Source: Treponema sp.
Lineage (GTDB): Bacteria; Spirochaetota; Spirochaetia; Treponematales; Breznakiellaceae
Reading direction: 5' to 3'
Assembly (NCBI GenBank): GCA_031284385.1
Contig: JAISZZ010000189.1
Coordinates: forward strand, 1-25,844
DNA length: 25,844 nucleotides
Within the stretch, counting starts at the first letter, position 1; every line of letters begins with the position of its first letter. The notes beneath the pieces are model-generated. The model ran no database searches, was not told where the DNA came from, and worked only from the letters and a program-made list of their open reading frames with translations. The translations under genes and the position numbers were made by a program. Shown here in pieces: positions 4,066 to 22,515 of this stretch.

Positions 4066-4191
4066 ATTATTGTTAGAATATTTTAGGAATTGCAGATTTG
4101 CGAATTTTTACGCGGCTTCAGCTTCAAAATTCGCGCATGGTAAGTCCCCGTAGCGCAGTGATTTTGGTATGGTTGGAAGCGTAATAGTAAC

Positions 4192-4236
4192 AATTTGACA
4201 CATATATCACTTTGAAACAGCCCTATGTGTCAAATT
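4192..4236. promoter_or_regulatory. 13-bp perfect inverted repeat, candidate enhancer for the sigma-54 promoter
   Basis: The arms aatttgacacata (4192-4204) and tatgtgtcaaatt (4224-4236) are perfect inverse complements separated by 19 bp. The centre lies about 180 bp upstream of the predicted sigma-54 start (near 4393), which is the usual place for a bacterial enhancer-binding protein site. It is followed by no T-run and precedes no nearby gene end, so a terminator is less likely. The activator is unknown. Confidence 0.5.
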
Positions 4237-4365
4237 TACACGATTAGTAAAATTTATTGAAAAATAGCACTTTTTGTGGCAAAAAAAAATCAATTGCCGA
4301 TAATATAAATTCATACCGGATAACAATTTAGGAAAAAATGGAGAAATATTACAACAACCCCGAAC

Positions 4366-4382
4366 TTGGCATACTTATTGCT
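4366..4382 (+). promoter_or_regulatory. Sigma-54 (RpoN) promoter of the sigma-factor gene
   Basis: The sequence TTGGCATACTTATTGCT matches the -24/-12 consensus TGGCAC-N5-TTGCW. GG (4368-4369) and GC (4380-4381) are exactly 12 bp apart start to start. The expected transcription start is near 4393, giving a 5' leader of about 23 nt that contains the AGGAGG ribosome site. A TATAAT at 4387 overlaps it but has only a 15-bp spacer from TTGGCA, which is poor for sigma-70. Confidence 0.7.
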
Positions 4383-4415
4383 TTATTATAATAACTTGTT
4401 GTATAGGAGGTTACT

Positions 4416-5288
4416 ATGAACAAGAAGCGAAATATGGCGAATAAACGTTCCGCCCTAGCGGACGAGAATGTTTTGACACTTTATTTGAAAGACATCAGCC
4501 GAATTCCCTTGTTGACAAGGGAAGAAGAAGATACCATAGCCCGTAAAGCCGCGGCGGGCGATCAGGATGCGTTAAACAGACTGGTCAGGGCTAATTTGCG
4601 TTTCGTTGTAAATGTCGCGAAGAGGTATCAGGGGCAAGGTTTGCCTCTTACAGATCTTATAAGTGAAGGAAATATAGGCTTGATGAGCGCTGTAAGCCGT
4701 TTCGATGTTGATAAGGGTTATCATTTTATATCGTATGCGGTTTGGTGGATAAGGCAGGCTATTCTAAAGGCTATCTCTGAAAAATCACGGATGATACGCC
4801 TGCCAATGAATCGTGCCGATGAATTGCTGCGCATACAACGCACTAAAACTGAATTGCAAGGCAATGAATCTACAGATTCAGAAATAAATGAAATCGCACG
4901 CGCGCTTGATATGAGCGCGTCCCATGTCAACCGATTGTTGAATGTGAGTCGTGAGATGGTTTCTCTGGATACTCCTGTTTATTCAGAGAAAGATTCTTGT
5001 ATTATCGCTGACCATATTGAGGATGAAACATATCAGACACCTTATGAATTTGCCGAACAGAGCCTCATGCGCGAGGATATAGAGGCTGTCCTGGATACAC
5101 TTGATAAGAAAGAGGCCGCCGTTATACGTTACCGTTTTGGTATCGGCGATTCGATTCAAATGTCGCTTCGTGAAATAGGCGACCGCTTTAATCTAACTAA
5201 AGAGCGGATACGGCAGATCGAAAAGAAAGCCATAAAACGGCTGCAACACCCGATGCGTCAACAAAAATTGCAGGTTTATGTCGCGTAG
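4416..5288 (+). CDS. Alternative sigma-70-family RNA polymerase sigma factor (RpoS/RpoD-like, group 2)
   Basis: This 290-aa protein directs RNA polymerase to a subset of promoters. Region 1.2 begins ENVLTLYLKDISRIPLL (17-33). Region 2 (about 56-126) contains NLRFVVNVAKRY, DLISEGNIGLM and the -10-reading FISYAVWWIRQAI. Region 3 lies at about 130-210. Region 4 (about 223-277) contains YRFGIG and the helix-turn-helix SLREIGDRFNLTKERIRQIE that reads the -35 element. It lacks the long region 1.1 and the non-conserved insert of a housekeeping RpoD, so it is a compact secondary factor. Its start is fixed by AGGAGG five bases upstream. Transcription is predicted from a sigma-54 promoter with an upstream dyad, and a terminator follows the stop. 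RpoS of Borrelia is the closest functional parallel, but orthology is inference. Confidence 0.88.
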   Translation: MNKKRNMANKRSALADENVLTLYLKDISRIPLLTREEEDTIARKAAAGDQDALNRLVRANLRFVVNVAKRYQGQGLPLTDLISEGNIGLMSAVSRFDVDKGYHFISYAVWWIRQAILKAISEKSRMIRLPMNRADELLRIQRTKTELQGNESTDSEINEIARALDMSASHVNRLLNVSREMVSLDTPVYSEKDSCIIADHIEDETYQTPYEFAEQSLMREDIEAVLDTLDKKEAAVIRYRFGIGDSIQMSLREIGDRFNLTKERIRQIEKKAIKRLQHPMRQQKLQVYVA

Positions 5289-5430: not shown

Positions 5431-5601
5431 AAGCACTGATTTATGCGAGTGTGCATTCGTCAACGTAGTTGACGCAATCAGTGCTGCTTTAATGCGAATG
5501 TCAACGAAGTTGACACATTTGCGTAATGAAATGAGCTTGGCTCCTTAAGGCGACGCTGATGCGCCAGCTATGCTGGCGAGGCTTCAAGTTAATCAGTGCT
5601 T
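5431..5601. repeat. 171-bp element bounded by 11-bp inverted repeats, with internal palindromes
   Basis: The ends are exact inverse complements: aagcactgatt (5431-5441) and aatcagtgctt (5591-5601). A third, 10-bp copy of the right end lies inside at 5476-5485. Internal palindromes are gtcaac-gta-gttgac (5459-5473), gtcaac-gaa-gttgac (5500-5514) and cgccagc-tat-gctggcg (5562-5578). No reading frame is convincing. The architecture resembles a miniature non-autonomous element or a mosaic of small palindromic repeats. It fills most of the 363-bp gap between the sigma gene and pbpC; the rest of the gap holds the sigma terminator and 50 bp with no strong promoter. Confidence 0.6.
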
Positions 5602-8606: not shown

Positions 8607-11465
8607 ATGATAAAGAATAAATTTAGAGGATTGACTATGGTGGTCATATCCATGTTGGTTATTATCTTGGCAGGCTGCGGCGACGCTTCGGATGCATCGT
8701 CCGGCGGTGACAGCCTGACCAAAGATAATGGTAAAAAGGGCGGTGGATCGAGCGCCGAAGGCGCGCCCGGCTTCAACGTTACTTTTGATCCGCAAGGCGG
8801 TGAATGGACTATCAACGATTCAGACGCTTACTGGAAAAATGTAATCAATGCTGACGGAACGGTAAATTTGCCGGACATATATATAGAGCGCAGTGGAATG
8901 TTGCTGTTAGGTTGGTATGACAGACCGCAGCCTGCGAAAAATATATCGCGTTCCGAAGCAGAGAGCGCGGACGACTCAGACGAGGAAACGCAGGTTGACT
9001 TGCTGCCTGACGGACAGGAAAATTCCGAAAACCCGCCATATCTGGCTGCCAGCGCGAAAATTCCCGATGAAGGCATCTTTACGCGAAATATAAAACTTTC
9101 AAAAAACACAACGCTTTACGCATGGTGGCAGGAATTAGCGGAAGATTCTGTAATTATAACTTTTGTGCCATATTGGACAAATGGCGCACGCGGCTTCAAG
9201 CGTCAGGCTCTCGCAAAAAATGGCTATAAAATAGAAAAACTTCCACGTTTAAAGGGCGGGCCAGAACATTACCACGCGGTAGACGACAAGAATCAGCCTT
9301 CCAATACGGTATGGTTTACGCAAATATCGGATGGCGATGTGTTTTCAGGATACAGTACGGAAAATACTACCGTTTACGGGCATTGGGTGGGAAATGAATA
9401 CACGGTAACATTCGATTTTAATGGCGGGGAAAACAGCGCCGGCGAACCTTCATCCGATGAAACTTACACATACTCAATAGACCATCCGAACACTGTTACA
9501 TTAAATAGCGGCAAAACGCCTTCGCCGCCGGACGGATACGACGGATTTTTGGGATGGTTTACAGAGCAAAAGGCAAATATCAACATTGATACGGACACTT
9601 ATGCCGCGTTGCCATCTTCCGATGACAAAACGCGGTTTATCGCCGGCGTTACCCCTGTAGAGGGAAACATCACCGTGTACGCGCTATGGCAGAATAGGCC
9701 GAATGATTCGCGTAAAATAACGTTTAGGCCATACGAAAACGGGGACATTACGTCAATGTACGCGAAACTAGACGGCGAAGAATATAAACTTGACGGCGCT
9801 ATTCCGTCTGTTGGGCAGAGACCTCACTATACACCGGTTGACGGTAAATGGTATTACCATGACGACGGCGGCGCGGAGCATGAATTAACCGCGTCAACAG
9901 ATATACCCGGTGATATTACCGCTTACGCGAAGTGGAAGGGAAACACATACACCGTAACATTCGATAAGCAGAACGGCTCGGCGGACTTAAAACAAACGGT
10001 AACATACCCCGTGAACAAACTCACCACGCTGGAAACTATTCAAAAAGAAGGAACGGGCTCAAAAGAACATTACCACAGCGACACAAAATGGTACTCAGGC
10101 GGCGGCGAATTTACCGTCAACACGGAAATTACCGGCGATATTACCGTAACCCCAAACTGGGAAGGCAATGTTTATTCGCTGGAATATCACAGTAATGACG
10201 GAACCGGAACGCCGCATACAACGGTAACGCGGACATATCCTGCGGCAATAGCTTCGTTTCCCGCCGCCCCCGCACGAGCGGACTGGGCGTTTAACGGATG
10301 GTACGACACGCCGGCGGCGAGCGGAGGAATTCAACTGCAAACCGGCGATATTCTTACGGCTGATAAAAAGGTTTACGCAAGGTGGGATGCCGGAACGGTC
10401 GCCATAACGGGAATCACGGCAAAATACGGTTCCGTCAACGCAAAAGTAAATGAAACTATCTCAGGCGACACGCTGAATTACACAGTGTCAATTCCTAAAT
10501 TTGTGGATGAGCCTGTCATTGTAAGCATTACCGCTATATCCAGTTACGGCGCTCCGGTCATTTCAACGCCGTCCGTAACGATGCCGCTCAACAGTTACAG
10601 TACCAGCGGCGGCAGCATCGCATCATTCACGGTAATAACGCCAAACGGCGCTTTTTCCAAAACTTACACGATAAAATTTACAAAAGATTCGACTAACAAA
10701 CAGATGGCCGCAGGCGGGAATAAAATTGATTTTATAAAGACCGGTTCCGGCGTGAACGCGACATGGAGTGAAGTACATACTTTTACATCAACAGGGAGTC
10801 ATACATTGAAATTCGATTTAGGCCGTTATCCCGCTAACTTAACAGGCAAAGCACTGATAGCCGGCGGGGGCGGCGGCGGCGGCGGTTCAGGCACAAATGA
10901 TGACGGAGGCGGGGGCGGCTCAGGCGGCGTTGCTTTAAGCAAATCGGTGAAAATACTCGATACGACAAACATTACGGTAGGCGGCGGCGGAGCAGGCGGC
11001 GCGGGAAATAGAAACGGCGGCGGCAAGAGGGGCGTATCAGGCGGCGATTCCTCGTATGGTTCCGTCAAAGCGCATGGCGGCGGCGGAGGCGGCGCGGGAA
11101 ATTCCTCAGAAGGACGGGGACTCGACGGCGGTTCAGGCGGCGGCGGCGGCGCAGGATCCGGCACGGCAACTTTTGCCGGCGGAAAGGTTAAACAAAATTC
11201 CGACGCTCAAGGATTCACCTTTTATGGAGCGGTTGGCGCGGCAAGCAACAGCGGAGTAACCGGCGGCGGTGGTGGCAGCGCCAATTTTACCAGCGATATA
11301 AGCGGCGCAAACGCCACTTACGGGAAAGGCGGCGGTTCCAATAAAGGCAAAAATGGCAACGATGGTTTTGGAGACGGCGGCGGAGGCGGTGCAGGCGGCA
11401 GCGGCGGCCCAGGCGGGAAAGGCGGCTCGGGCATTGTAATAGTAAACTTCAAGTTCAGCGAATAA
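8607..11465 (+). CDS. Large surface lipoprotein with InlB B-type repeats, beta-sandwich and glycine-rich tail
   Basis: This is a 952-aa protein of unknown substrate. A signal peptide ends in a lipobox LAGC with Cys24, so it should be lipid-anchored. Residues about 52-595 carry roughly six InlB B-repeat (Listeria-Bacteroides type) units, recognised by openings such as YTVTFDFNGG and endings such as ITVYALW, TAYAKW and KVYARW. Residues about 596-695 look like a cadherin-like beta-sandwich ending KTYTIKF. From about residue 750 the chain is strongly glycine-rich (runs such as AGGGGGGGG) and ends GGKGGSGIVIVNFKF, the usual close of the glycine-rich domains found in tail fibres and environmental surface proteins. 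ATG 8607 has GGAGGA six bases upstream. Such domain sets suggest adhesion or binding, which is inference. Confidence 0.8.
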   Translation: MIKNKFRGLTMVVISMLVIILAGCGDASDASSGGDSLTKDNGKKGGGSSAEGAPGFNVTFDPQGGEWTINDSDAYWKNVINADGTVNLPDIYIERSGMLLLGWYDRPQPAKNISRSEAESADDSDEETQVDLLPDGQENSENPPYLAASAKIPDEGIFTRNIKLSKNTTLYAWWQELAEDSVIITFVPYWTNGARGFKRQALAKNGYKIEKLPRLKGGPEHYHAVDDKNQPSNTVWFTQISDGDVFSGYSTENTTVYGHWVGNEYTVTFDFNGGENSAGEPSSDETYTYSIDHPNTVTLNSGKTPSPPDGYDGFLGWFTEQKANINIDTDTYAALPSSDDKTRFIAGVTPVEGNITVYALWQNRPNDSRKITFRPYENGDITSMYAKLDGEEYKLDGAIPSVGQRPHYTPVDGKWYYHDDGGAEHELTASTDIPGDITAYAKWKGNTYTVTFDKQNGSADLKQTVTYPVNKLTTLETIQKEGTGSKEHYHSDTKWYSGGGEFTVNTEITGDITVTPNWEGNVYSLEYHSNDGTGTPHTTVTRTYPAAIASFPAAPARADWAFNGWYDTPAASGGIQLQTGDILTADKKVYARWDAGTVAITGITAKYGSVNAKVNETISGDTLNYTVSIPKFVDEPVIVSITAISSYGAPVISTPSVTMPLNSYSTSGGSIASFTVITPNGAFSKTYTIKFTKDSTNKQMAAGGNKIDFIKTGSGVNATWSEVHTFTSTGSHTLKFDLGRYPANLTGKALIAGGGGGGGGSGTNDDGGGGGSGGVALSKSVKILDTTNITVGGGGAGGAGNRNGGGKRGVSGGDSSYGSVKAHGGGGGGAGNSSEGRGLDGGSGGGGGAGSGTATFAGGKVKQNSDAQGFTFYGAVGAASNSGVTGGGGGSANFTSDISGANATYGKGGGSNKGKNGNDGFGDGGGGGAGGSGGPGGKGGSGIVIVNFKFSE

Positions 11466-11583: not shown

Positions 11584-11850
11584 TTATTCCTCTTCGAATT
11601 TTGAGGAGAATAAGCGTAAAAGCCGGTCAACAGCCTCTCTCTCATCCTCTCCGTCAGCTATTATTTTTATTTCGCTGTTGTATACGGCGCCCAGTGTGAT
11701 GATACCCAGAATCGATTTTGCGTTGATACGGTTAGATCCCTGCTCAAAGTATATCGAAGCCTTAAAATCTTTCGTCATTCCTACTAACAACGATGCCGGA
11801 CGCGCATGAATACCAGCTCTGTTTACGACTTTTACAATTTCCTCAACCAT
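11584..11850 (-). CDS. ptsH: Phosphocarrier protein HPr
   Basis: This is an 88-aa protein, the normal HPr length. The active-site motif NRAGIHARPASLL places His15 at the canonical position for phosphorylation by enzyme I. Ser46 sits in the regulatory site motif INAKSILGIITLGA, the target of HPr kinase. It has a GGAGGG ribosome site eight bases before ATG and starts 16 bp after the hprK stop, so the two are one operon ending at the terminator near 11478-11520. No enzyme I or sugar permease gene is nearby. In treponemes HPr and HprK are known in genomes lacking sugar-specific permeases, so a regulatory rather than transport role is likely here, but that is inference. Confidence 0.95.
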   Translation of the reverse strand: MVEEIVKVVNRAGIHARPASLLVGMTKDFKASIYFEQGSNRINAKSILGIITLGAVYNSEIKIIADGEDEREAVDRLLRLFSSKFEEE

Positions 11851-11866
11851 TATCGCATCCCTCCAA

Positions 11867-12856
11867 TTATGTTATATCATTCTGCCCAAAATACACAGAA
11901 CTCGCCCGCTCACTTTCTATCCATTTAAGTATGTTACGCTCAAATTCCTTTCCAGAGTTATAACCCATGATTCTTAACCGCTCGTTCATCACCGCCGTTT
12001 CTATGACTATACAGCAGTCGCGGCCCGGTTTTACAGGCACCGTAAGTTTATGAACGCTTACACCAAGCAAGTTTATAAATTCATCCCTGCTGCCCAGACG
12101 GTCATAATTTTTTTTAGGGTCCCAGTCTTCAAGCTCTATCACAAGCTGTATCTGTTTACGGTCCCGAATCGCGCCCGCGCCGAACAAGTGCGTAACATTG
12201 ATAATGCCAAGCCCGCGTATTTCCATGTGGTGGCCGATAATTTTGTTTGCGCCGGTTCCCACAAGAACATTGCCGTTTATACATTGTATTTTTATAGCGT
12301 CATCCGCTATAAGCCTGTGGCCGGACTTTATCAATTCAAGCGCAATTTCGCTTTTTCCAACGCCGGATTCCCCAAGCAACAGCACCCCCATACCAAGCAC
12401 TTCAAGCATTACGCCGTGCAGCGTCTTTTGAGGGGCAAATATAGTTGACAGCACACGCAGTATACGCACTACGAATTCGGTAGTATTGAGGCTCGTTAAA
12501 AGGATGGGGCAGTCAGACTTTTCCGCTGCCTCAATAAAGAACGGCTCTGGACTGAGGCCAAACGTAAATATACAACACGGAATCTTGTAATCAAAGAATC
12601 TGTTCACGGAAGCCGTATTTTTCTCGACAACCATTTTTTTTAAGTAAGCCACCTCGCCGCGCCCGAAAATTTGAATTCTGTCATTGGCAAAAACTTCAAA
12701 AAAACCGGACAGGGCGAGGCCGGGCCTGTTTACTTCTGGAATACTGATACTCCGGGACAAACCTTTGCGCCCGCAAAGGCAGCGCAAATCCAGCGAGTCG
12801 TGTTCCTTGAGGTTAAGCCCGATAATATCAAGCACCGTAAATTTTTTTTCAGGCAT
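11867..12856 (-). CDS. hprK: HPr kinase/phosphorylase HprK
   Basis: This 329-aa bifunctional enzyme phosphorylates HPr on Ser46 with ATP or pyrophosphate and removes that phosphate, linking metabolic state to regulation. The N-terminal domain (about 1-130) has the usual fold pattern. The catalytic domain opens HGVMLEVLGMGVLLL and contains the Walker A GESGVGKS (162-169), the ADD pair at 184-186 and the HprK signature MEIRGLGIINV (211-221). All key residues are intact and the length is typical. ATG 12856 has an AAGG-like site upstream. It is followed by ptsH. Upstream lie a 12-bp palindrome and a dispersed repeat that separates it from the CsgG/LRR lipoprotein gene; read-through from that gene is possible. 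Confidence 0.95.
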   Translation of the reverse strand: MPEKKFTVLDIIGLNLKEHDSLDLRCLCGRKGLSRSISIPEVNRPGLALSGFFEVFANDRIQIFGRGEVAYLKKMVVEKNTASVNRFFDYKIPCCIFTFGLSPEPFFIEAAEKSDCPILLTSLNTTEFVVRILRVLSTIFAPQKTLHGVMLEVLGMGVLLLGESGVGKSEIALELIKSGHRLIADDAIKIQCINGNVLVGTGANKIIGHHMEIRGLGIINVTHLFGAGAIRDRKQIQLVIELEDWDPKKNYDRLGSRDEFINLLGVSVHKLTVPVKPGRDCCIVIETAVMNERLRIMGYNSGKEFERNILKWIESERASSVYFGQNDIT

Positions 12857-18147: not shown

Positions 18148-21100
18148 CTAATAACGTTGAAAATTTATGTTCGACACTGTAGAATTGTATGTTTTTGAAC
18201 TACCACCAGAATAATTGCCTTCTAGATAACAAGCTTTTCCGTCACTACCAACAGTGTTCTCATATTCAGTGTCATTATTTCCATATATCTTGCTGGTAGC
18301 ATCAATTGTAATAGGGCCATAGACATGGTATTCATTAACACAGAGACCGCCACCATTGGTTAGCGCTGTATTTTTTGATATCTCTGAATAATTCTTTATT
18401 GTCAGCTTTGCATTGTCATAAACATACGCGCCGCCGCCGCCGCCACCCAAAGCATGATTATAATTTATTTTTGCTTTATCTAATATAATTTCTCCACCCG
18501 CTTGTGGATAAACACCACCGCCAAATGTAGCCGTATTGTAACTTATCTCGCAACCCTCATTTATGGTTACGACAGCGCCGGTTTTAGCAAATACACCGCC
18601 CGCGTCCTGTGCGGCATAATTATAGTTTATCTTTGAACCGGCGTTGAGCGTAACATTGGCATATGTGACATATAGCCCGCCGCCACCTTGATTATTACTT
18701 CCATATTCAGACTTATTGAATTGAATGAGTGCCCCCGAATCCAAGGAAACCGAAGCCGAACTGATATAAACTCCGCCAGCATTGGCGGCGCGATTGCCGT
18801 CTTTTCTCCCGTCCATATAACCGTCAGTGTTGACATTATCGGCAAGGTCCCAGTCTACACTGCCTCCATTTGTATTACTTATTTTTCCGCCTATCACTCC
18901 GCCCGTCATATTCAAATTGCCGCCCTGCATATAGATGCCGCCGCCTGTGCCTTTTTCACTATTATTAGAGGTAGAATCATAGGCTCTGTTCGCTCTAATC
19001 GCTCCGGCAACGATATTCAATGTAGCGGCGTTTATATAAACGCCGCCGCCCTTACCGCTGTTGCGGGTATGATTTTCAGCTACCTCAGAACCCGGCCCAA
19101 GCGTTACAGTAGACCCAGCTCCTGCCATGTATATCCCGCCACCATCACTCTGCCCGTTACCGCCACTTATCTTTATGTTCGTAAAATAGACGTTTGATTG
19201 TCCATTCGTAGTCGATGTGATATAAATAACGCGCCGTGCGCCGGCAGGCTTCAGATAGGCATCATCGACGCCCTGTATCGTTATGTTCCCGGCATCTTGA
19301 ATAAAAAAGCCAGAATCGGAGTTCGCCTCTCCCTCTAACGTGCCGTGAACCACTATGGTTTTAATGCGGCTATCGTTAGCTTTGACTTTTTCTACCGCTT
19401 TTTCCAGCGTTTTTAACGCTGTGGCATCTTTTAAACCGTTGTTGGTATCGACACCTCCGCTTTTTACATGGTAATAGGCTGTGTAACATTTTCCATCGTT
19501 GTGAACATAGTACGGAATTCCGCCCAGCGCACTTACCGCAAATGATTTATATTTTCCTAACGAGCCGCTTAAAAGTGTTATCGCACCGTTCTCCGAAGGA
19601 CTATTCGGCGTTATACAGGCAGCCGCGTTTGGCGGAGCATATTGCGCGAGAGCATCACCTGCATCTATGGTTTTGGTATCTGGCAGATAGACATCGTTTC
19701 CCTGTTCAACCTGCGCCGCTCCATCCATTTTAAATATCCCGTTATTATAAACGCCGCGGCCTTCCACGCCGCTGTTGGCTGCTATCACACCTCCGGTCAT
19801 CGAAAGAGTTCCGGCTATGTACACGCCCCCCCCCTCCCCATTCACCACCCCAGTACCGGATGCATTACCGGTTGCATTGTTTCTGTTTATCCCGCCGCTT
19901 TCCATGTTTACCGTGCGGGCGTTATTTATATACAAACCACCGCCGTTATTTGTCGCCGTATTGTCCTCTATCAACGCGCCTGCGCTAATGATGAGCGGTT
20001 TCGTAGAATCCATGTACACGCCGCCGCCGCTGCCAGCCTTGTTTCCGGTTATCACCGCGCCGGTTTCTAACTTAACGCCGGCGCTGCCTGAAATAAGTAT
20101 GCCGCCGCCATTGTTACTGGTGTCTCCGCCCGTAACAATCATATTTTCAAGAACAACATTGGACGATCCGTTTATGGTGAGCGTCCGTTTACCGGTGCCG
20201 GCCTTCAGTTTTGCCTGATTTACCCCGCCGCTTATTGTCAGCGTTTCAGTGTTGGAGGCGTTAATCGTAAACGTGGAGTTCGCATCGCCGGTTCCGTAAG
20301 CGTCCCCGCCCGCGCTCGTCAACTCGCCTTCTATTACAACTTTATCGATTTTGTTAGCAATCGCGGCTGTAATTGCCTTGCTCAATGTCGCAAAGGCCTG
20401 TTCAGATGTTTCGCCGTTTTGGGCATCGGATCCGGTTGATTTTACATAGTAAGCGTCGGGATAGCGCATATTTACCAAATATTCGCTCTTATAACCGGAG
20501 CCGCTTTTAAGCGTTATGCCTACGGTTATAAGGCCGCCTCTGTTTTCAAATTTTAGCCCCGAAAGCGTTGTTTTGGGACCTTCTTTGGTCATGGTATAAT
20601 CGGTTCCGAGCGCCTTTCCGTTCACGGAAAATTCGACAGTGGTTTCGTTGGGACTCGTTACTTCCAATGAAAACGTCTTCTTTAATTCAGGCTTGCCGAT
20701 AGCTTCGTAAGACGGCGACATCGAAGATGACTCTATCAAACCGGTAATATTCTGTGGTATAGCGTTTATATTGACACCTGTAAGCGTAACTTTGGTATCA
20801 ACATTGATGTTCAGAGTGTAAGAGTGCGATGTCCAGCCGTCTCCGCCTGAGACGGTCAGCACCATTTTATAATGAGGATTGGATGCGTTCTTTTCCGGCT
20901 GGGCAATATAACTTTGTTTCAATGTATCCGATGTTGCTCCCACTGTTATTTCGAATGTCGTTATGAAAAAGTCTGAGGCCGGTATCGCGTTGACAATCAA
21001 AGCCTGCATTCCATAGGGAACTGTAACATCAAAAACGCCTTCCATTTCCGGGTTTTCTATTTCCGCTGCGGGGTTCAGCAATTCCGTCCCGTTGTTTTTT

Positions 21101-22473
21101 ACAAATTTCGCCCCGCCGATAAGTTTTATCTTACTCAGAATCGCATCGCCGTTAGGCCCAACTCCAAAGTTTACGGTATAAGTGGTCGATACTCTGTTTT
21201 CTTTTGACACAGTTATAATGAGCTGGGGCGTACCAGCTATATTTGGGTACAGAACTACAGAGCCGTCCGTTTTCCCATCGTAACTGTAATACTGGATTGT
21301 GGCATCATCATCCGCGTGAGCCACGACCGTTACCGCAGGCGTGTTCGGGGGCACATGCAGTATATACTGGGTATGCGTCTGCACAAAAACGGGATCGGCG
21401 CTGGCATTAGCATTGGGGCCTATCTGCTCAAAATATGAGTTATCCTCTCCAAGGGGACAACTCATACCGGTAAGGTAGACCGACTCCTTCGAGGAAGGCA
21501 CAATGTTTACCGTATATTCGGTTTTTATATAACCGGCGCTGCCGTTTACCGACAACTTTACGCTGCTACCGTTTGCCACGGATGCTTTTTTAGCAGGATC
21601 ATATTCAACTGTGTGGGTAAATACTTCCGGTATGCCGGTCAATTCCACATTCGCAGGATCGCTGGGTTGGCTGACTATCAAGTTATAAGTTTTTTTATCA
21701 GGGTTAAAAAACGGGGCTCCGTCTATCGCCCCCGCCGTTGATTTTATCATTATCAGTTTGGCAGAGCGCGGATCGCCGTACTTAAATTTCAATTTATACA
21801 CTGTATCCGAAAACCCCGGCCCGTAAACCGTGATTTCGGCTGTGTCCTCTTCCTCTTTTCCGGTCAGCAAGACTTTTGCGCCGGGCGTGTATGCCACAAA
21901 TTGAGTCGTCTCCTCCGCCTGCCCCAGTACCATGACTTCAGAGGCATTGTATGGAACATCCACCTCGTATTCGGTACATTCTTTCTCAAAATCCGGCTTA
22001 ATCGTTGAGCCGCTGGACACGGTAAGTTCTACAAGATAGGCCGGAAGGAGTTCCTGCCCGTCAACCAAAAAGTTTATTACATAATGGGCTGTCGAAGCGC
22101 CCGAACCTACGTGTACCGTTATATAACTTGTCTGGCTTGGATTAACGGTATGCAGGCCGCCTTCAAAAGTAACAGTGTCGCGAAGCTGCGCCGCCGTAGC
22201 TTCCACCGTAACGGAGGGAGTGTTCGCGGGGAGTTTAACCGTATAACTGAAACGGGACGGGTCAAAAGCCGGCTCAAGTTCGCCTACGCTGACGGTCAGC
22301 GTGGCCAGCCGCGACAACGTAGCTAATCCGGCGTGTCCCCTATCCAATCCGGTCGGCATTGAAATGACACTTTGCATCAGATCGAATTCCGGCTCGTTAC
22401 AACCCAGAAAAATTAGCATTGTTATCACCGCGAAAATTATTCCCCGTCTGGTACGCTTTGACTTACCCGTCAT
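18148..22473 (-). CDS. Giant surface lipoprotein: cadherin-like beta-sandwich repeats plus right-handed beta-helix
   Basis: This protein has 1441 aa from ATG 22473, preceded by GAGGAG with a 6-base spacer; an upstream in-frame GTG lacks support. The lipobox IFLGC places the lipid-modified residue at Cys25. Up to about residue 671 there are about six cadherin-like beta-sandwich units with endings such as YVINF, YKLKF, YTVNF and YTLNI. From about 675 it becomes a parallel beta-helix in two blocks, each opened by a similar YYVKSTGSDAQNG or YHVKSGGVDTNNG module, then many turns of GGGVYI/GGGIYM type. It ends SNINFQRY without a recognisable secretion or anchor domain. It is probably on the cell surface and may bind polysaccharide or host matrix, which is inference. 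It converges with the cyclase gene at a 4-bp gap. Confidence 0.82.
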   Translation of the reverse strand: MTGKSKRTRRGIIFAVITMLIFLGCNEPEFDLMQSVISMPTGLDRGHAGLATLSRLATLTVSVGELEPAFDPSRFSYTVKLPANTPSVTVEATAAQLRDTVTFEGGLHTVNPSQTSYITVHVGSGASTAHYVINFLVDGQELLPAYLVELTVSSGSTIKPDFEKECTEYEVDVPYNASEVMVLGQAEETTQFVAYTPGAKVLLTGKEEEDTAEITVYGPGFSDTVYKLKFKYGDPRSAKLIMIKSTAGAIDGAPFFNPDKKTYNLIVSQPSDPANVELTGIPEVFTHTVEYDPAKKASVANGSSVKLSVNGSAGYIKTEYTVNIVPSSKESVYLTGMSCPLGEDNSYFEQIGPNANASADPVFVQTHTQYILHVPPNTPAVTVVAHADDDATIQYYSYDGKTDGSVVLYPNIAGTPQLIITVSKENRVSTTYTVNFGVGPNGDAILSKIKLIGGAKFVKNNGTELLNPAAEIENPEMEGVFDVTVPYGMQALIVNAIPASDFFITTFEITVGATSDTLKQSYIAQPEKNASNPHYKMVLTVSGGDGWTSHSYTLNINVDTKVTLTGVNINAIPQNITGLIESSSMSPSYEAIGKPELKKTFSLEVTSPNETTVEFSVNGKALGTDYTMTKEGPKTTLSGLKFENRGGLITVGITLKSGSGYKSEYLVNMRYPDAYYVKSTGSDAQNGETSEQAFATLSKAITAAIANKIDKVVIEGELTSAGGDAYGTGDANSTFTINASNTETLTISGGVNQAKLKAGTGKRTLTINGSSNVVLENMIVTGGDTSNNGGGILISGSAGVKLETGAVITGNKAGSGGGVYMDSTKPLIISAGALIEDNTATNNGGGLYINNARTVNMESGGINRNNATGNASGTGVVNGEGGGVYIAGTLSMTGGVIAANSGVEGRGVYNNGIFKMDGAAQVEQGNDVYLPDTKTIDAGDALAQYAPPNAAACITPNSPSENGAITLLSGSLGKYKSFAVSALGGIPYYVHNDGKCYTAYYHVKSGGVDTNNGLKDATALKTLEKAVEKVKANDSRIKTIVVHGTLEGEANSDSGFFIQDAGNITIQGVDDAYLKPAGARRVIYITSTTNGQSNVYFTNIKISGGNGQSDGGGIYMAGAGSTVTLGPGSEVAENHTRNSGKGGGVYINAATLNIVAGAIRANRAYDSTSNNSEKGTGGGIYMQGGNLNMTGGVIGGKISNTNGGSVDWDLADNVNTDGYMDGRKDGNRAANAGGVYISSASVSLDSGALIQFNKSEYGSNNQGGGGLYVTYANVTLNAGSKINYNYAAQDAGGVFAKTGAVVTINEGCEISYNTATFGGGVYPQAGGEIILDKAKINYNHALGGGGGGAYVYDNAKLTIKNYSEISKNTALTNGGGLCVNEYHVYGPITIDATSKIYGNNDTEYENTVGSDGKACYLEGNYSGGSSKTYNSTVSNINFQRY
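19826..19834 (-). repeat. G9 homopolymer tract inside the giant lipoprotein gene
   Basis: On the coding strand nine consecutive G encode Gly-Gly-Gly at about residue 880, in the sequence GEGGGVY. The equivalent GGGVY turns elsewhere in this gene mostly use GGC or GGT codons. A one-base slip would frameshift the gene and remove the second beta-helix block. Confidence 0.7.
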
Positions 22474-22515
22474 ATCAAACTCCTCTTCGCAATAGTATAC
22501 TAAAATCACCTTCCT

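Follow-up and report, generated by a model that had tools for sequence, protein, structure and literature searches.

A predicted sigma-54-to-sigma relay with a phased candidate enhancer in Treponema and related spirochaetes

The sigma A gene and its upstream region

The stretch of Treponema sp. DNA that we analysed, referred to throughout as the window, is 25,844 nucleotides long. It contains an intact open reading frame for a sigma-70-family protein, which we call sigma A, with the following features in and upstream of the gene.

4186-4202, no strand assigned: candidate enhancer dyad 1, AGTAACA-ATT-TGACACA, with a good half-site TGACACA at 4196-4202, within a conserved block that the window shares with its 7 closest relatives
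4226-4242, no strand assigned: candidate enhancer dyad 2, TGTGTCA-AAT-TTACACG, with a good half-site TGTGTCA at 4226-4232; its centre is 40 bp from that of dyad 1
4366-4382, forward strand: sigma-54 (-24/-12) promoter by sequence, TTGGCATACTTATTGCT, an exact match to TGGCAYRNNNNTTGCW
4393, forward strand: predicted transcription start, placed 12 nt 3' of the GC doublet from promoter geometry
4405-4410, forward strand: Shine-Dalgarno sequence AGGAGG, with GGAGG kept in the window and 7/7 closest relatives
4416-5288, forward strand: clade-A group-2 sigma-70 factor of 290 aa without region 1.1, assigned from the open reading frame, Pfam matches, NCBIfam scores and trees

A preliminary description of this DNA had called the sigma protein compact and intact in regions 2 and 4, and this was borne out: Pfam sigma-70 regions 1.2 (residues 20-50), 2, 3 and 4 are all matched within the 290 aa. 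We considered whether the gene could be assigned to a named family. The RpoD model TIGR02393 gives 257.9 bits against a cut-off of 354, and the RpoS model TIGR02394 gives 258.3 bits against 378.7. Because both scores lie below their cut-offs, the window gene is, by sequence, a group-2 sigma factor belonging to neither family. A group-1 RpoD was further rejected on the missing region 1.1 and on the separate long RpoD-type genes (open frames of 582-710 aa) found in all 10 relatives searched. Sigma A shares with gammaproteobacterial RpoS the group-2 architecture of regions 1.2 to 4, and differs from it in the TIGR02394 score and in lacking the region 3.1 lysine: the column of E. coli K173 is an aspartate here, so we also rejected a proteobacterial RpoS. 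The significance of K173 and E458 is treated in section 23 of PMC6719511. Region 4.2 of clade A conserves TKERIRQIE, close to the RpoD counterpart TRERIRQIE, and region 2.4 differs, with ILKA in the window versus ITRS in E. coli RpoD. This suggests that clade A may recognise an RpoD-like -35 element with an altered -10 preference.

The promoter, TTGGCATACTTATTGCT, is the single exact match to TGGCAYRNNNNTTGCW in the 25.8-kb window. Its doublets, GG at 4368-4369 and GC at 4380-4381, are separated by 10 bases, which agrees with the near-consensus match and exact GG-to-GC spacing claimed earlier; the spacer given there, TGGCA-N7-TTGC, was one base off, the actual spacer being N6. When up to two mismatches are allowed, there are 12 matches to TGGCAYRNNNNTTGCW in the window versus 13.1 expected, no excess over chance, and the case for the promoter therefore rests on its exactness and its conservation. 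The predicted start at about 4393 would give a leader of 23 nt that includes the AGGAGG site and ends at the ATG at 4416, as compact as had been described.

When the window was aligned with its seven closest relatives over the upstream region, one conserved block emerged, approximately 115-180 nt 5' of the promoter, which in the window is an inverted repeat (4182-4204 and 4224-4246). The dyad TTGANACA-N4-8-TGTNTCAA is present in all eight of these upstreams, and the 688 kb of sequence in the 80 loci of our first sample contains seven copies, all of them in the loci L001-L007. The two window dyads have one good half-site each. We propose that these phased dyads at 4186-4242 are a candidate upstream activator sequence, at a fitting distance from the sigma-54 promoter.

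Several other features of the window were noted. A block of short repeats with inverted units, recognised by eye, lies at 5440-5600, between the sigma gene and a pbpC-like gene. Two long lipoprotein-like open reading frames with repeats, of 952 and 1453 aa (8607-11465 and 18148-22509), have by eye the look of surface proteins. An HPr-hprK pair is found at 11584-12856 with no rpoN adjoining it. In the relative G318 (L288, 2125-8521), rpoN, a 128-aa open reading frame (hpf-like by eye), hprK and HPr (by eye) follow one another on the strand of sigma A, some 4 kb upstream of that gene.

Conservation of the promoter and the place of clade A among spirochaete sigma factors

To assess conservation we used two sets of loci. 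For the first we kept the best 80 of 164 loci, all in records whose titles read Spirochaetaceae, Treponema, Spirochaetales or similar. The second came from a search of 296 genomes of the phylum, in which 40 regions (L109-L148) were chosen from the listed matches blind to their promoters; one, L143, was dropped, leaving 39 usable regions. Together with the window, and after removal of L069 (4 bases of upstream sequence) and of eight loci on an early branch of clade A (L132 and L134 placed by similarity, the other six by tree), these gave a main clade of 111 loci. The loci are not all independent, as L024/L027 and L041/L042 have identical sites at identical distances.

A GG-N10-GC site scoring at least 10/12 lies within 250 nt upstream of sigma A at 104 of the 111 main-clade loci. 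In dinucleotide-shuffled sequence the mean was 0.57 loci and the maximum 4; there were none on the reverse strand, and the remainder of the 80 loci held 22 such sites in 1.34 million positions. The GG and GC doublets are thus conserved among orthologues, the comparison that the preliminary description had proposed. None of the eight early-branch loci has a site of this quality within 250 nt. Borrelia rpoD, where 1 of 14 genes reached the threshold, is a weak control because the 250 nt tested fall within coding sequence.

The seven main-clade misses were inspected individually. L054 and L138 score 9; at L128 and L141 the site is further upstream than 250 nt; and L115 and L117 read, by eye, TAGCA instead of TGGCA. 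At L075 there is no sigma-54 site upstream, and rpoN was also not found in that genome. The gene for RpoN (PF04552) was detected in 25/29 and 41/42 related genomes, including 4/7 of the closest relatives of the window. As a side observation, the TAGCA promoters of L115 and L117 (G048 and G202) are at an unchanged position and the RpoN of these genomes matches PF04552 more weakly (E about 1e-35), while L126, their sister, retains TGGCA; co-drift of RpoN and its site is possible. Taking exactness and conservation together, we regard TTGGCATACTTATTGCT as confirmed, at the level of sequence, as a genuine sigma-54 promoter.

We then asked how sigma A relates to Borrelia RpoS. In a first tree of 91 rows, clade A formed one branch (100/98), and Borrelia RpoS grouped with seven other paralogues (100/99) in what we call clade B. 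An AU test rejected a single clade of clade A plus Borrelia RpoS (p 0.028), as it did for clade A without its early branch plus Borrelia RpoS (p 0.0008). For a second tree we removed 12 long-branch rows, one of them E. coli RpoS, together with 20 redundant rows of the first tree and 3 redundant clade-B candidates. In it, a branch supported at 100/98 split clade A and RpoD from 37 clade-B candidates, five clade-B rows and Borrelia RpoS. Six of the candidates (L262-L264 and L266-L268) grouped together near the root with weak placement, and some candidates may therefore not belong to clade B. Borrelia RpoS is a long branch, and its position within clade B is weakly supported.

Gene order gave a similar picture. 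The order sigma gene, BB0770-like gene, tsaD is found in a Borrelia-like genome and with the clade-B genes of G014, G223 and G241, and 18 of the 40 fetched clade-B candidates have tsaD downstream on the same strand, with a few regions ending at contig ends. We take the Borrelia-like genomes to be Borrelia, partly from their gene order, and the names BB0770, tsaD and hpk2 are likewise presumed. In clade B (loci L222, L223-L225 and L229-L268), a sigma-54 site precedes 35 of the 40 candidates, as it does all 14 Borrelia-like rpoS genes. Taken with the counts for clade A, there are therefore two different group-2 sigma genes behind sigma-54 promoters. Both A and B are present in G014, G223 and G006; several relatives thus have, by sequence, two sigma-54-driven group-2 sigma genes each. 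No second sigma-54-driven sigma factor was found in the 14 Borrelia-like genomes, each of which has two sigma matches that we read as RpoD and RpoS.

The trees, the AU test and gene order together indicate that sigma A is not an orthologue of Borrelia RpoS, and that clade B is the apparent Borrelia RpoS group. Regulation of the two genes is not supported as the same step. The preliminary description had likened the locus to the Borrelia Rrp2-RpoN-RpoS pathway. One part of that comparison stands, in that a sigma-54 promoter precedes a sigma-70-family gene and a sigma-to-sigma relay is the best reading; the part that equated it with the RpoN-RpoS step of Borrelia does not, given the two trees, the AU test and gene order.

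Phased dyads in the wider clade and their other predicted targets

We examined the candidate enhancer in 95 clade-A upstreams, including the window and leaving out its seven closest relatives. The most enriched 7-mer was TGACACA/TGTGTCA (45 upstreams vs 3.1 expected), followed by TGACCCA (35/95 vs 2.7); TGATACA was present in 38/95 (vs 4.9). At least one copy of the half-site TGAYHCA occurs in 86 of the 95 upstreams, with 19.75 for shuffles, and nine have none. The half-sites are spaced at exactly 10, 30 and 40 bp, which describes two 17-bp dyads, TGNRTCA-N3-TGAYNCA, placed 40 bp apart; the half-site spacing of the window (FR 30) is common to 11 other upstreams. At least one correctly phased half-site pair is present in 43/95 upstreams (shuffles: mean 0.01, maximum 1) and absent from 52/95. 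None of 39 clade-B-type upstreams has a phased pair; these are enriched for another word, TGTATAA/TTATACA (22/39 vs 3.3 expected). NtrC-type enhancers consist of paired 17-bp dyads upstream of a -24/-12 promoter. The dyads described here differ from these in their half-site, TGAYNCA, and in the 40 bp between the two dyads.

A scan of 22 genomes for the perfect dyad, TGDRTCANNNTGAYHCA, gave 22 places in nine of them, compared with one place for a reversed-pattern control. The perfect dyad is absent from the other 13, including G003, G007 and G014, where sigma A has imperfect dyads only. We examined the context of 19 of the 22 places (all save G006:C31, G006:C232 and G241:3705575). Seven of the 19 lie before sigma A (in G232, G308, G241, G305 and G006, and two 40 bp apart in G008). 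Five more, in four genomes (G159, G006, G308 and two 40 bp apart in G008), lie with a sigma-54 site before hsp20, identified by Pfam HSP20 matches (including L269, L272 and L279). In G223, two hsp20 genes are preceded by imperfect dyads, which match at 15 or 16 of 17 positions. The remaining seven places (L273, L275, L278 and L281-L284) have no sigma-54 site scoring at least 9 within 400 nt downstream; we take these dyads as chance or repeat occurrences and rejected them as enhancers.

A strict sigma-54 pattern was also counted genome-wide. Counts exceeded a reversed-pattern control in G003 (3 vs 1), G006 (8 vs 4), G007 (3 vs 1) and G223 (18 vs 0). Because those of G001 (2 vs 3) and G014 (10 vs 12) did not, we dropped such counts as evidence and used position and conservation alone. 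The six genomes hold 44 strict sites, and the loci of 30 were examined. Strict sites precede sigma A at five loci and, in the sixth genome, G223, at 1019694, with sigma A at 1019773; they precede clade-B genes in G014, G223 and G006. By Pfam, with one representative examined for amtB, other genes 3' of strict sites encode or are amtB, GS-III, nifH, hsp20, a ferritin-like protein, a peroxiredoxin, an ABC ATPase and a symporter. Four sites (L179, L181, L186 and L192) have no open reading frame downstream, two (L190 and L193) stand, by eye, before or within a helicase-like frame, and at L196, L205 and L208 the downstream gene is unclassified. No dyad of at least 15/17 accompanies the nitrogen genes or the clade-B genes at these loci.

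A candidate activator and a model of the relay

Which protein might act at the dyads? The best candidate is Rrp2, an enhancer-binding protein with receiver, AAA+ and HTH_8 domains. Orthologues (51-60% identity, at least 450 bits) were found in 50 of 59 main-clade genomes, and one further genome has a fragment. No orthologue reaching these values was detected in the eight early-branch genomes, which are without the promoter, or in eight main-clade genomes (G001, G006, G007, G008, G012, G017, G059 and G070). Among the seven closest relatives of the window, G003, G004 and G005 have Rrp2, G002 has the fragment, and G001, G006 and G007 have none. Of the 31 genomes for which the positions of both genes are known, nine have rrp2 upstream of sigma A, in the same orientation and at a distance of 3.0-7.4 kb; the two genes share a contig in 20 and are on different contigs in 11. 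In G305, whose sigma A has both dyad and sigma-54 promoter, Rrp2 is the only clear enhancer-binding protein among the matches listed, three further matches being weaker than about 5e-6. G027 has Rrp2, with neither promoter nor rpoN detected. An enhancer-binding protein beside the amtB promoter of G014, NifA-like by eye, was considered as the activator and rejected, as the upstream of that promoter is without such a dyad.

In the model that we favour, Rrp2, the response regulator of the Hpk2-Rrp2 pair, would most likely bind the two phased 17-bp dyads at 4186-4242 and, once bound, would activate sigma-54 RNA polymerase at 4366-4382. This polymerase would turn on the compact group-2 sigma factor of clade A, and that factor would in turn steer RNA polymerase to a second layer of genes. 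In relatives, genes for small heat-shock proteins also have this dyad and a sigma-54 promoter in front of them, so that stress or starvation is the probable input. We consider this relay, taken as a whole, to be a probable reading of the locus.

A first alternative concerns the identity of the activator. The relay from enhancer through sigma-54 to clade A could be genuine and yet be driven by another enhancer-binding protein, with Rrp2-like proteins serving clade B as in Borrelia. Borrelia Rrp2 activates rpoS, that is, clade B, whose upstreams here are without these dyads, and so another protein may serve clade A. The separate word of the clade-B-type upstreams points the same way, as do the kinase and enhancer-binding regulator pair that adjoins clade B in G241 and the eight main-clade genomes in which Rrp2 was not found, three of them among the closest relatives of the window. 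Against it, the G241 regulator next to clade B shares just 39-44% identity with Borrelia Rrp2, and a 56% orthologue is encoded elsewhere in that genome; rrp2 is linked to sigma A in nine of 31 genomes; and in G305 Rrp2 stands alone among the listed matches as a clear enhancer-binding protein. We judge this alternative somewhat doubtful, although it shares the core of the favoured model and the two are not mutually exclusive.

Two other readings would change the core itself. That the window gene is simply a diverged rpoS, and its regulation the RpoN-RpoS step of Borrelia, would fit the sigma-54 promoters before both group-2 genes and the presence of Rrp2 in most genomes. It is very unlikely in view of both AU tests, the 100/98 branch that parts A and RpoD from the clade-B-type rows and Borrelia RpoS, the gene order common to the Borrelia-like genome and clade B, and the presence of A and B side by side in G014, G223 and G006. 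Least probable of all, and hardly credible to us, is that the -24/-12 match is a chance occurrence or a relic and that a sigma-70 promoter drives the gene. The strict-pattern counts of G001 and G014 are what would be expected in that case, and those of the other four genomes are not; nor are conservation of the site at 104 of 111 loci and a phased enhancer at a fitting distance. Furthermore, of the loci without a good site, L075 comes from a genome in which rpoN was not detected and L138 from one whose rpoN match is weak.

The relay that we favour resembles the Borrelia burgdorferi Rrp2-RpoN-RpoS pathway in having a sigma-54 promoter directly before a group-2 sigma gene and Rrp2 orthologues in most main-clade genomes tested. 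It differs in that the sigma factor is of clade A here and of clade B there, in its phased enhancer, and in that hsp20 and other genes are also predicted sigma-54 targets. B. burgdorferi rpoS is called the sole identified gene with a sigma-54 promoter in the accessible text of PMC11109971, and section 23 of PMC6719511 questions whether RpoS is the correct name for the Borrelia protein. The EbpA-RpoN system of Leptospira is likewise an instance of spirochaete sigma-54 regulation that includes amtB, and differs in that the accessible parts of its description contain no sigma-to-sigma step; the same source states that L. interrogans is without RpoS (PMC12655853). In the literature found, in which subscription papers were mostly out of reach and several sources were accessible in part, no sigma-54-driven sigma factor is described in a spirochaete other than Borrelia (PMC12070737, PMC3914990, PMC12316311, PMC12655853, PMC6719511, PMC3162934, PMC11109971), and a search on TP1012/TP0493 gave nothing on point. 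A relay from sigma-54 to a second sigma factor, conserved and with a phased enhancer, akin to the Borrelia pathway and distinct from it, would thus be new as far as this search reaches.

These comparisons lead us to a prediction on the origin of the Lyme pathway, which we offer tentatively as a real possibility. Ancestral spirochaetes may have had a double relay, in which sigma-54 drove two group-2 sigma factors through different enhancers, with Hpk2-Rrp2 first paired with clade A and hsp20 via TGTGTCA-N3-TGACACA dyads. The Borrelia pathway would then be a remnant, clade A having been lost and Rrp2 having switched, without this enhancer, to the clade-B sigma factor now called RpoS. Most of the related spirochaetes that we examined retain the arrangement described here, and the relay of the Lyme spirochaete may accordingly represent a single branch of a circuit that is older and more widespread. 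Borrelia RpoS gains relatives with a common gene order in other spirochaetes, a second, apparently sigma-54-driven sigma factor is added, and an enhancer word is defined; the activator and the regulon become testable in harmless relatives.
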